Origin: Methylobacterium ajmalii
Lineage (GTDB): Bacteria > Pseudomonadota > Alphaproteobacteria > Rhizobiales > Beijerinckiaceae
Assembly: GCF_016613415.1 (NCBI RefSeq)
Contig: NZ_JACWCT010000061.1
Location: 1 to 64,000 of the forward strand
Length of the DNA: 64,000 bases
Direction of reading: 5' to 3'
Of this stretch, positions 1 through 8,014 are shown piece by piece. Made by a program: the position numbers and the translations under genes. Each line of letters opens with the position of its first letter. Position 1 is the first letter of the stretch. The notes beneath the pieces were generated by a model that did not search any database, was not told the origin of the DNA, and saw only the letters and a program-made list of their open reading frames with translations.

Positions 1-2
1 GC

Positions 3-650
3 CGCCGGGACGCCGCGCCGGATGCGCCGCGACCGGACCCGGACGGGCCGGCGCCGGATCCGGGCCCGGGGCACGAGCCGGCCGGCCTCGTGCTGGTCGG
101 TGCCTCGACCGGCGGCCCGCCGGCCCTCACCGCCCTGCTCGGCGCGCTGGCGGCCGGCTTCCCCTGGCCGATCGTGGTGGCCCAGCACATGCCGGCGAGT
201 TTCACCGGGGCGCTGGCGCGGCGGCTCGACGGGCTCTCGGCCCTGGCGGTGCAGGAGGTGACCGCGCCGGTCGCCCTCGTCCCGGGTCGGGTCTATGTCG
301 GGCGCGGCGACGCCGACGTGATCGTGGTGCGCCGGCCCGGCGGCCTGATGGCCGCCCCGGCCCCGGCCCGGGCCGACTACCCCTGGCATCCGAGCGTCGA
401 CCGGCTGGTGGAGAGCGCCCTCGACCTCGTCCCGGCCCCTCGCCTCATCGGCGTGCTGATGACCGGCATGGGCCGCGACGGCGCCCGCGCCATGGCGGCC
501 CTGCGCGAGCGCGGCGGGCGCACCATCGCGGAGGCCGAGGCGACGGCGGTGGTCTGGGGCATGCCGGGCGAACTGGTGCGGGCCGGCGGCGCCAGCGTGG
601 TCGCCCCGCTCGAGGCCATCGCGGCCGAGCTGACGGCGCTGGTGCCATGA
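3..650 (+). CDS. cheB: CheB protein-glutamate methylesterase, 5' partial
   Basis: This is the C-terminal catalytic domain of CheB, which removes methyl groups from chemoreceptor glutamates and deamidates glutamines. The frame is open from the window edge, so the N-terminal receiver domain must lie upstream. A proline/aspartate-rich linker of about 30 residues is visible first. The catalytic residues are all present: Ser in GASTGG, His in AQHMP and Asp in GMGRDGA. The stop overlaps the cheR start (ATGA), indicating translational coupling in one chemotaxis operon. The family assignment is secure; only the missing N-terminus is uncertain. Confidence 0.95.
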   Translation, partial: RRDAAPDAPRPDPDGPAPDPGPGHEPAGLVLVGASTGGPPALTALLGALAAGFPWPIVVAQHMPASFTGALARRLDGLSALAVQEVTAPVALVPGRVYVGRGDADVIVVRRPGGLMAAPAPARADYPWHPSVDRLVESALDLVPAPRLIGVLMTGMGRDGARAMAALRERGGRTIAEAEATAVVWGMPGELVRAGGASVVAPLEAIAAELTALVP

Positions 651-1534
651 GGCGCGAGGCGGCCACCGGGGAGCCTGCCCTCCTGGCGGATGCCGACCTG
701 GCCCGGGTCTGCGAGCTACTCTACCGCCAGACCGGCATCCTGGTGCCGGCCGACCGGCGCCCGTTCATCGAGCGCCGGGTGCGCGAGCGGATGGGCGCCA
801 CCGGGACGGACGGCGTGCCGGGCTATCTGGCGCGGCTGCGCGCCGACACGGACGGCGAGGTCCAGCTCTTCGTCAATGCCTTCACGGTCAACGAGACCTA
901 CTTCTTCCGCGAGGCCCACCAGCTGCACTGCCTCACCGCCTCGCTGATGCCGGCGATCGCCGCCGGACGCGACCCCGCCGACCCGATCCGGATCTGGTCG
1001 ATGCCCTGCGCAACCGGCGAGGAGCCGTATTCCCTGGCGATCTGGCTCCTCGAGCACTGGCCCGAGGTCGACCGCTGGGAGATCGAGATCGTCGGCTCGG
1101 ACATCGACACCCGGGCGCTCGCCGCCGCCGGGGCCGGGCGCTACGGCGCCCGTGCCCTCGGCCGGCTGCCGCCGGACCTCGTTGCGCGCTACTTCACCGC
1201 CGAGGCGGGGACCGCCGTGCCGTCCTGGCGCATCCTGCCGGAGCTGCGCGACTCGGTGCGCTTCAGCCGCCGCAACCTCGTCGACGGGCCCGGCATGGCG
1301 CAGGAGGGGCGCTTCGACATCGTGTTCTGCCGCAACGTGCTGATCTACTTCGACGACGCCTCGCGCCGGCTCGCGGCAAACACCCTTTTTTCCGCCCTGC
1401 GGCCGGGCGGCTTCCTGTGCCTCGGCCACACCGAATCTATGGACCGGATCCCGTCGCGGTTCCGCACCCGCCGCTTCCCGGAGGCGATCGTCCACCAGCG
1501 TCCGGCGGATGCGCGCGAAGGGGATGCCCCGTGA
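647..1534 (+). CDS. cheR: CheR chemotaxis methyltransferase
   Basis: This encodes a SAM-dependent protein-glutamate O-methyltransferase of 295 residues, close to the family length. The N-terminal helical CheR domain is followed by the catalytic fold with the SAM-binding stretch WSMPCATGEEPYS. The acidic SDIDTRAL loop and the CRNVLIYFD motif are also present. The ATG overlaps the cheB stop and the stop overlaps the GTG of the cheA-like gene, so cheB, cheR and cheA read as a tightly coupled unit. Together with CheB it should set the methylation level of a chemoreceptor not encoded in the visible part. Confidence 0.95.
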   Translation: MRREAATGEPALLADADLARVCELLYRQTGILVPADRRPFIERRVRERMGATGTDGVPGYLARLRADTDGEVQLFVNAFTVNETYFFREAHQLHCLTASLMPAIAAGRDPADPIRIWSMPCATGEEPYSLAIWLLEHWPEVDRWEIEIVGSDIDTRALAAAGAGRYGARALGRLPPDLVARYFTAEAGTAVPSWRILPELRDSVRFSRRNLVDGPGMAQEGRFDIVFCRNVLIYFDDASRRLAANTLFSALRPGGFLCLGHTESMDRIPSRFRTRRFPEAIVHQRPADAREGDAP

Positions 1535-5517: not shown

Positions 5518-5551
5518 TGACGCTCCCCCCTCAGGCCGGCAGGCTGCCCGC

Positions 5552-8014
5552 ATGAGCGCCCCGGACGGCACCGATCCCGGCCGCGCCGAGGCGCTCGCCG
5601 CCGCGATCGCGGCGGCGCGGCACCGGGCCGGGCCGTTCCTCGCCGCCTTCGAGCAGTCGCGCCAGCCGATGCTCGTCACCGATCCGCGCCTGCCCGACAA
5701 CCCGATCGTCTACGCCAACCCGGCCTTCCTGACGCTCGCCGGCTACTCCGCCGAGGAGGTGGTGGGCAGCAACTGCCGGTTCCTGCAAGGGGCCGAGACC
5801 GATCCGGGCGCGGTGGCGGCGATCCGCGAGGGGCTGCGCGAGGAGCGCGTCACCCGGGTCACGCTCCTGAACTACCGCCGCGACGGCAGCCGGTTCTGGA
5901 ACCAGCTGCTGATCTGCCCGATCCGCGACGAGGCGGGTCGCCTCGTCAACTACTTCGCCTCGCAGGTGGACATGTCGCATGTCCACGAAGCCGAGGCCGG
6001 ACGCACGCGGCTCGCCGACATCGAGCGGCGCCTCTCCGAGGCGCAGCGCCAGCTCTCGCTCACCCTCTCGTCGGCCGGCATCGCCGGCACCTGGGACTGG
6101 GACATCCCGGAGAAGCGCCTGCACGTCGACGCGCGCTTCGCGGCGCTGACCGGGCTCGCGCCGCCCGCGCGCCCCGGAACGGTGCCGCTCAGCCCCGGGC
6201 CGCTGCCGTCGAGCGCCTTCTTCGCCGGCATCCACCCCCTCGACCGGGGGCGGGTGCGGCTCGCGGTGAGCGGCATCCTCGGCGGCGCGGAGGTGTTCGA
6301 CAAGGAGTACCGGCTGCTCGGGCCGGACGGTGCGGTACGTTGGGTCCATGCCCGCGGCCGCTGCCATTTCGGCGCCGATGGGCGGCCGGCCCGCTTCACC
6401 GGCGTGCTGGTCGAGGTCACCGACCAGAAGCGGGTCGAGGAGCGGCTGCGCATCGCGCAGTCGGCGGGGCGCGTCGGCGCCTTCGAGCACGTCCCGGGCT
6501 TCGCCACCGTGGCGGCCTCGCCGCAATTCTGCAGCCTGCTCGGCCTGGTGCCGGCCCGCACCGTCGCGGCGAGCGCCGTCAACGCCCTGGTGGTCGAGGG
6601 CGACCCGCCGCTGATGGCGCCCGACCAGCGCCAGGAGGGCGAGCTTCCGCCGATCGAGACGCGGGTGCGGCTTGCCGATACCGGCGAGGTGCGCTGGCTG
6701 GTGCGCCGGGGCGAGGCGATCCGCGACACCGAGACCTCGGGCCTGCGCCATGTCGGGGTGATCTACGACGTCACGGAATCGAAGCGGGCCGAGGTGGCGC
6801 TCCGCGAGCTCAACGACACCCTGGAGGCGCGGGTGCGCGAGGCGGTGGCCGAGCGTGAGCGGGCCGAGGAGCAGCTGCGCCAGTCGCAGAAGATGGAGGC
6901 GGTGGGCCAGCTCACCGGCGGCATCGCCCACGACTTCAACAACCTGCTCACCGGCATCGTCGGCTCGCTCGACCTGATGCAGACCCGCATCAACGAGGGC
7001 CGGACCGAGAACCTGACCCGCTACGCCGGCCTCGCCATGGCCTCGGCCCAGCGCGCCGCGGCGCTGACCCACCGGCTGCTCGCCTTCTCGCGCCGCCAGC
7101 CGCTCGAATCGAGGCCCGTCGACGCCAACCGGCTGGTGAGCTCGATGGACGAATTGATGCGCCGGACGCTGGGCGAGCGGGTCCAGCTCGAGGTGGTGGT
7201 GGCCGGCGGCCTGTGGCTGACGCTGTGCGACCCCAACCAGCTCGAGAACGCGATCCTCAACCTCGCGATCAACGCCCGCGACGCGATGCCGGAAGGCGGG
7301 CGGCTCACCATCGAGACCGCCAATTCCCACCTCGACGACGCCTATGCGTCGCGCGAGATCGGGGTGCGGGCGGGCCAGTACGTCTGCGTCAGCGTGACCG
7401 ATACCGGCACCGGCATGCCGCCCGACGTGATCGCCCGGGCCTTCGACCCGTTCTTCACCACCAAGCCCCTGGGGCAGGGCACGGGCCTCGGCCTGTCGAT
7501 GATCTACGGCTTCGCCAAGCAATCCGAGGGCAACGTCAAGATCTACTCGGAGGCCGGGCAGGGCACGACGGTCAAGCTCTACCTGCCGCGCTACCACGGC
7601 GAGGTCGAGGCCTTGGCGGAGGTGCGGGGCGAGGCGCCGCGGGCCGAGCGCGGCGAGACGGTGCTGGTGGTCGAGGACGATCCGACGGTGCGGTCCCTGG
7701 TGATCGAGGTGCTGCACGAGCTCGGCTACCGCACCCTGGAGGCCGGCGACGGCACCGCGGGCCTGCGCCACCTGCAATCGGACGCGCATATCGACCTGCT
7801 CGTCACCGATGTCGGCCTGCCGGGCCTCAACGGCCGCCAGCTCGCCGACCAGGCCCGCCTGGTGCGCCCGGCCCTCAAGGTGCTGTTCATGACCGGCTAC
7901 GCCGAGAACGCGACCTTCGGCAACGGCCATCTCGGCCCCGGCATGCAGATGATCACCAAGCCGTTCCCGGTCGAGGGACTGGCGACCAAGATCCGGTCGA
8001 TCATCGAGGGGTGA
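5552..8014 (+). CDS. LOV-domain hybrid histidine kinase (predicted blue-light sensor)
   Basis: This is an 820-residue hybrid kinase. The N-terminal PAS domain (about residues 32-145) has the LOV photoreceptor signature GSNCRFLQ, with Cys75 as the residue that forms the flavin adduct under blue light. The [11 protein letters not shown] motif follows. Two more PAS domains (about 180-295 and 300-415) lead to an H-box [11 protein letters not shown] (His460), an HATPase domain and a C-terminal receiver with Asp753 in VTDVGLPG. It starts 34 bp after the CheC-like gene, on the same strand, and is probably cotranscribed. Light dependence is inferred from the intact LOV motif. Confidence 0.93.

Follow-up and report, generated by a model that had tools for sequence, protein, structure and literature searches.

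The first 8,014 nucleotides of the window, a 64,000-nucleotide stretch of Methylobacterium ajmalii that runs from base 1 of its contig (C186) onward, carry seven signalling genes (Table 1): cheB, cut by the contig end, cheR, cheA, a small STAS-like gene, a CheY-like receiver, a CheC-type phosphatase and a hybrid histidine kinase with a LOV domain. Judged by gene content here and in relatives, these genes make up the rear half of a chemosensory cluster of class F9, one whose last genes are CheC and a hybrid kinase. An earlier note, made from the sequence letters, had placed seven genes at these positions, and coordinates and domain scans agree. The stop/start overlaps that it saw in both halves of the set are there, each of 4 bp (647/650, 1531/1534, 3663/3666 and 4846/4849), and the LOV kinase that it put within 34 bp of CheC lies at exactly that distance.

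Table 1. Genes, domains and repeat at the start of the window.
Feature	Position	Strand	Evidence
cheB, 3' part (methylesterase domain)	<3-650 (feature 1..650)	+	PF01339, E 3e-51
cheR, methyltransferase	647-1534	+	PF01739, E 1e-51; PF03705
cheA (Hpt, dimerisation, HATPase and CheW-like domains)	1531-3666	+	Pfam
Small STAS-like protein	3663-3923	+	PF13466 only, E 0.05, below cut-off
Gap between the two gene halves, 512 bp, no gene assigned	3924-4435		
Palindromic repeat, 60-nt arms, 83% complementary	4063-4197		
Single-domain receiver (CheY-like)	4436-4849	+	PF00072, E 7e-20
CheC-type phosphatase	4846-5517	+	Both active-site motifs intact
Hybrid histidine kinase, LOV-PAS-PAS-HisKA-HATPase-REC	5552-8014	+	Pfam; second PAS-like stretch from alignment only
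LOV domain	5606-6001	+	Nearest solved sequence 6ph3, E 2.4e-38

The same order recurs well beyond this genome, throughout the Alphaproteobacteria. Among the best 80 of 141 relatives from a CheC scan (hereafter the named loci), the recurring arrangement is DosM-CheW3-CheB-CheR-CheA-STAS-receiver-CheC-hybrid kinase, where CheW3 is a triple CheW protein; it is found in many families, and the genera include Methylobacterium, Microvirga, Caulobacter, Phenylobacterium, Sphingomonas, Novosphingobium, Roseomonas and Nitrospirillum. CheA lies upstream of CheC on the same strand, at most 0.9 kb away, in 78 of the 80 loci, the exceptions being one locus with the che genes beside the block on the opposite strand (L022) and one cut by its contig (L050). 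A kinase core stands directly downstream of CheC in 77 of the 80, and a further locus (L025) is cut inside the kinase and still shows LOV, which makes 78; of the remaining two, L095 is cut by its contig and L096 has no kinase core. DosM and CheW3 are both seen in 70 loci, and the other 10 end before one or both. The gene-order check proposed in the earlier note thus came out in favour of conservation, and the linkage of kinase to che genes, whose absence had been named beforehand as the refuting outcome, is kept. Methylobacterium is generally rich in LOV kinases (PMC4844311; this and the other papers named here are cited from excerpts), so adjacency in a single genome would be weak evidence and it is the conserved order that counts; given these counts, the set is more than a chance neighbourhood. 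The closest CheC among the relatives is that of M. indicum (96%). A phylum sample of 398 genomes gave one locus outside the class with the same order (G802), which has no LOV domain.

The catalytic residues are conserved to match. A histidine occupies the position of the CheA phospho-site, His56 (codon 1696-1698), in all 73 relatives with a letter there (5 of the 78 alignment rows are gapped), and the phospho-acceptor position of the receiver, Asp65 (codon 4628-4630), is Asp in each of the 79 receivers found in the 80 loci. CheC has two E-x2-N-x22-P motifs, starting at residues 26 and 125, whose E, N and P are present in 80/80 relatives. Thermotoga maritima CheC belongs to the same family and has both active-site motifs (1xkr, E 3e-7); at only about 30 bits it is a distant relative. 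The kinases of relatives share PAS-like, HisKA, HATPase and REC domains, and the kinase His460 and REC Asp753 are conserved in all 76 relatives that are ungapped at the column (77 rows in total). In the window, HisKA and HATPase_c are above cut-off, and no HWE kinase domain match is listed at E 0.001; the sequence at the His is HDFNN (N four places on), a motif generally linked to phosphatase activity. Pfam finds no receiver domain in the CheA of the window. CheD was not seen among the seven proteins scanned, and no genome-wide CheD search was made. The cheB orthologue of one relative (L021, 4793-5905) comprises REC and methylesterase domains.

At the front of the kinase, the NCRFLQ motif reported in the earlier note is intact, with Cys75 (codon 5774-5776) as the photo-cysteine, and flavin-pocket motifs including SQVD are present; these pocket residues presumably hold the flavin. 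The closest solved LOV sequence, 6ph3, is that of a blue-light-activated histidine kinase. The photo-cysteine is found in all 32 loci of the genus. The 80 named loci divide into 31 with a LOV domain and its cysteine, 6 LOV-like without the cysteine motif, 2 in which no kinase core is seen and 41 with no LOV by BLAST, one of which (L052) has a weak phmmer LOV match. The suggestion that light is the signal of the pathway narrows to some lineages, LOV being unrecognised in 41 of the 80. On these domain counts, light appears to be the signal of some lineages and not of the system as such; the kinase core is more widespread than the light sensor, and LOV is best read as a detachable front end of the kinase.

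A single origin of that front end was considered and rejected: a tree of CheA and CheC needs at least 8 changes of the LOV-with-cysteine state. The tree has 78 rows (the window, 75 of the 80 named loci, L267 and L273), carries support from the Shimodaira-Hasegawa-like approximate likelihood ratio test only, and dropped L022, L025, L050, L095 and L096 for want of CheA or a kinase core; because its root is unknown, gain and loss of LOV cannot be told apart. Two Microvirga loci with the same F9 gene order (L064:10723-13488 and L075:10584-13478) have glycine in place of the photo-cysteine. A first regular expression had suggested loss of the cysteine in five further loci (L028, L030, L141, L142 and L282), whose motifs are NCRLLQ, NCRIFQ and NCRYLQ, with the cysteine kept. 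In two of these (L028:10647-13184 and L282:6543-8942) a Leu replaces the Gln of FASQVD (FASLID and FASLLD), which we assume to be a flavin-contacting residue.

The front of the cluster seems to lie on another contig. The earlier note saw no cheW; this absence is an artefact of the contig end, since relatives have CheW3 upstream, and a genuinely missing cheW is ruled out by the contig end together with synteny with the nearest relative (L264, genome G012). The whole genome has 57 MCPsignal matches, two of which share a reading frame at the beginning of contig C173. That gene, C173:1-1623(-), runs off the contig; its 541 residues begin MALVKK, contain two MCPsignal stretches with no other domain above the Pfam cut-off, and match the receptor located upstream of CheB in relatives, and we take it to be the genome's own DosM. 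The same holds for all three complete DosM orthologues tested: each has a pair of MCPsignal stretches as its sole domains above cut-off. The top 19-residue hydropathy of the protein, 1.89 at residue 477, falls in the second signalling domain, with none higher near the N-terminus. DosM and the stretch preceding it match L264 at 91.8% (4,029 bp); 2.1 kb past this match comes a second one, to the window, at 91.4%. Between both matches L264 has a hit covering 413 of the 478 CheW3 profile positions, and the gene after DosM has three CheW domains in both relatives tested by Pfam (L023 and L098). The locus thus seems to be split by an assembly gap where CheW3 should lie, its CheW3 being inferred from relatives.

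We assign the cluster to class F9 because DosM and the triple CheW are the signature genes, described as "unique to this class" (PMC9321776), and CheA, CheB, CheR and a CheY-like receiver stand together in the cluster. Full F9 clusters are reported from 64 of 2,781 species, 98% of DosM homologues are without sensory domains, and F9 input is said to need additional chemoreceptors or sensory proteins (PMC9321776). In Vibrio cholerae, two CheA/triple-CheW base plates sandwich the receptors of the F9 array; the system is called functionally still poorly understood (PMC7534058), and F9 arrays at large are called elusive in function and their DosM receptors mostly sensorless (PMC9321776, PMC7534058). 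V. cholerae cluster I (F9, DosM/CheW3) shares with the present cluster a soluble DosM that has two signalling domains and lacks a recognised sensor domain, the triple CheW (here in relatives), CheA, CheB, CheR and a receiver, and its DosM and CheW3 are adjacent, as in the relatives here (PMC9321776, PMC7534058). An excerpt of PMC11940527 gives cluster I as cheY1, cheA1, cheY2, cheR1, cheB1, a putative cheW and the receptors mlp13-16, naming neither CheC nor a hybrid kinase; unlike the cluster so described, ours ends in receiver, CheC and hybrid kinase. An attempt to count F9 clusters across the class by CheW3, with the best 4 candidates scored in each of 385 genomes, was given up: 92 genomes match at E 1e-20, most of the listed matches cover about one CheW domain, and among those listed five cover at least 450 of the 478 positions, that in G322 being much weaker than the other four.

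Within the genus, two F9 subtypes can be told apart. Among 111 genomes, CheC is present in 31, CheW3 in 43 and both in 26; the five genomes with CheC only are that of the window, three in which a contig ends in CheA or CheB (G450, G463 and G516), and G446. With the best 10 candidates scored per genome and matches listed best first, 29 genomes have a kinase core that spans at least 660 of 670 residues at 77% identity or above, all of them CheC genomes with the core adjoining CheC; it is split in a thirtieth (G447) and cut by the contig in the thirty-first (G516). The other 80 genomes show no full kinase core among the matches listed, only part-core matches. In G447 (L265) the LOV kinase is broken into two frames that overlap, through a frameshift either of the gene itself or of its assembly. 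The 46 CheW3 loci of the genus comprise 24 with CheC in the fetched stretch (two with the last block inverted), 3 in CheC genomes whose stretch is cut (G012 and G015) or whose block is elsewhere (G484), and 19 without CheC; the last are 17 genomes that lack CheC plus second loci of G504 and G013. These CheC-less loci have a longer CheA, 860-890 aa where readable, and 15 of the 19 have a gene for a methyl-accepting chemotaxis protein (MCP) after STAS, two being cut and two showing none, whereas BLAST with a DosM query found no MCP besides DosM in the 27 loci of CheC genomes. The place that a further receptor mostly takes in the other subtype is hence held by CheC and the hybrid kinase.

Two loci of the other subtype are followed by stressosome-like RsbR-RsbS-RsbT-RsbX genes (L231:14959-18015 and L234:14300-17483); in L234 these have RsbRD_N+STAS, STAS, HATPase and SpoIIE domains, which places an F9 array beside a partner-switching module. 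A candidate CheD between CheB and CheR turned out to be a HEAT-repeat protein in both loci tested (L234:7561-8259 and L266:7387-7989). Other F9 loci of the genus have a CheB-CheR gap of similar size; in the window the two genes overlap.

As the main explanation we propose, with a probability of about 0.55, that the F9 array, the LOV kinase, CheC and the receiver form one signalling system. What the data provide is the gene content, the intact catalytic and photochemical residues and their co-conservation. DosM and the triple CheW would build a two-layered cytoplasmic array with CheA, adapted by CheB and CheR. Of recognised sensor domains, the cluster encodes just LOV and PAS, both in its last gene; in the LOV domain blue light would form a cysteine-flavin adduct and shift the kinase/phosphatase balance of the hybrid kinase. 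The signals of kinase and CheA would converge at the stand-alone receiver, either straight away or by way of the REC domain of the kinase; CheC would strip the phosphate, and the receiver would carry the output. We think it most likely that a single receiver serves both the LOV kinase and CheA and is dephosphorylated by CheC, though we infer the route of the phosphate. The light pathway built on chemotaxis parts that the earlier note had imagined survives in its linkage, its photo-cysteine and its fitting parts; it is not receptor-less, being the back half of an F9-class cluster with DosM.

Several observations weigh against a single system. Loci without a recognised LOV domain or without its cysteine motif mean that light is not a general signal, and L096 pairs CheA with CheC and no kinase core. 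CheW3 was not found in this genome, where searches for CheW gave only the regions C38, C40 and C154 and the CheA of this locus. The 57 MCPsignal matches leave room for receptors encoded elsewhere, which could be the real input. The terminal MCPs of the other subtype have only an MCPsignal domain above cut-off (4/4 tested), so that they need not be the sensory inputs which the kinase would replace. Finally, the block of receiver, CheC and kinase lies in inverted orientation next to the che genes in G454 (M. frigidaeris; L258, which shares a contig with L022), likewise inverted but at a distance of 4.5 kb in G451 (L262), and about 816 kb from the che genes in G484, which keeps both parts; in G446 the 18-kb stretch read around the block has no che genes. 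The block is thus separable and may act alone.

A stricter form of the one-system proposal is that the F9 array is light-gated: in one branch of the class, the hybrid kinase would have replaced a further chemoreceptor and plug into DosM, CheW3 and CheA, with LOV as an exchangeable part, gained or lost, and with blue light and array computed on one receiver. We put this forward only tentatively and would not bet on it at even odds.

By analogy, the array might instead control the kinase, CheA phosphorylating the C-terminal REC domain of the LOV kinase, which alone would phosphorylate the receiver. The Che3 system of Rhodospirillum centenum offers a precedent, as only CheS3~P phosphorylates CheY3 there and CheA3 phosphorylates REC1 of CheS3 (PMC3868531), and the REC aspartate of the LOV kinase is invariant. 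The architectures differ, however: CheA3 has a REC domain and CheS3 two N-terminal RECs with an HWE kinase (PMC3868531), whereas here CheA has none and the kinase combines HisKA with a C-terminal REC. Such an order of command strikes us as somewhat unlikely.

The same arrangement might hold two systems side by side, the receiver, CheC and LOV kinase forming a light-sensing two-component module of their own beside the F9 genes, with no signal exchange with CheA, much as in Caulobacter LovK/LovR. A LOV kinase and the receiver next to it might suffice as a pair, the gap with its repeat precedes the receiver, four relatives have the block turned round or relocated, and its nucleotide identity to relatives is 88-93%, against 78-86% for the che genes (91% for cheB-cheR in L264). 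The palindrome in that gap, about 135 bp long, gives 83 matches at 42 places in the genome and is also matched twice in L261 (G484). With this gap, the halves need not share one transcript; together with the four displaced blocks it makes a separate promoter plausible, and the last three genes may have one of their own. Displacement of the block agrees with a second promoter, and also with a function in trans, as both parts are kept in G484. Yet in 78 of 80 loci, drawn from many families, the block comes after CheA, the genus shows no full kinase core without CheC among the matches listed, and CheC belongs to a family of CheY-P phosphatases. On balance, independence of the two halves looks improbable. 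Conventional phototaxis, with the receiver as a CheY that binds FliM so that light steers swimming, is very improbable, since a paper on F9 considers the class less likely to act as the main guide of flagellar swimming and the genome has three other CheW-bearing regions (C38, C40 and C154).

Some further features of the small proteins deserve mention. His45 of the STAS-like protein (codon 3795-3797) is invariant in a 39-row alignment and could be a phosphorylation site; at about this position, STAS proteins of partner-switching systems presumably have a serine. A confident structure model of the protein has a predicted local distance difference test score of 92.6. Its best Foldseek matches include RsbS, RsbV/RsbW chains and one chain from the MlaFEDB complex, all weak (E 0.01-0.06, template modelling score 0.46-0.59) and mixed with ClpP chains. 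Beyond the hybrid kinase, two loci (L273:14882-15508 and L274:14452-15099) have a second CheC gene in the same orientation, and a second CheC gene is convergent in three Phenylobacterium loci (L071:12938-13567, L076:12892-13503 and L089:12916-13533).

Known systems resemble the cluster in parts. LovK/LovR and the Brucella LOV histidine kinase share the LOV domain with NCRFLQ, and LovK/LovR also has a single-domain receiver beside the LOV kinase. LovK/LovR and Brucella kinases are of the HWE type, while the kinase of the window is HisKA with REC and linked to F9 genes. The Brucella kinase is described as acting on the general stress response. Ppr of Rhodocista (Rhodospirillum) centenaria is a photoreceptor histidine kinase whose kinase domain binds CheW; its sensor is PYP with a bilin-binding domain and not LOV, and an F9 cluster is not mentioned in the excerpt of PMC2993699. 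R. centenum Che3 (CheA3-CheS3-CheY3) likewise has, within a che cluster, a stand-alone receiver and a second kinase that bears PAS and REC domains, and differs in its two CheWs, its hybrid CheA, and the N-terminal RECs and HWE kinase of CheS3; the eight genes named in the excerpt of PMC3868531 include no CheC and no STAS protein. The CheA without a receiver and the C-terminal receiver of the second kinase set our cluster apart from the Che3 type.

As far as the literature searched goes, the linkage of CheC and a LOV or PAS hybrid kinase with class F9 is new. The gene set is not described in the titles and opening lines of abstracts of the open-licence literature searched, nor mentioned in the excerpts of PMC4844311, PMC5812497 and PMC6532209; the subtype may be tabulated among the supplementary F9 gene orders of PMC9321776. 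That the set is kept together in so many relatives suggests a light input to the F9 machine. For a class whose signal is otherwise unknown, this subtype would name a candidate input partner responsive to blue light, which can be switched at will; it occurs in genera with named isolates (Methylobacterium, Microvirga and Caulobacter), and the relatives without the cysteine or without a recognised LOV domain are natural controls.

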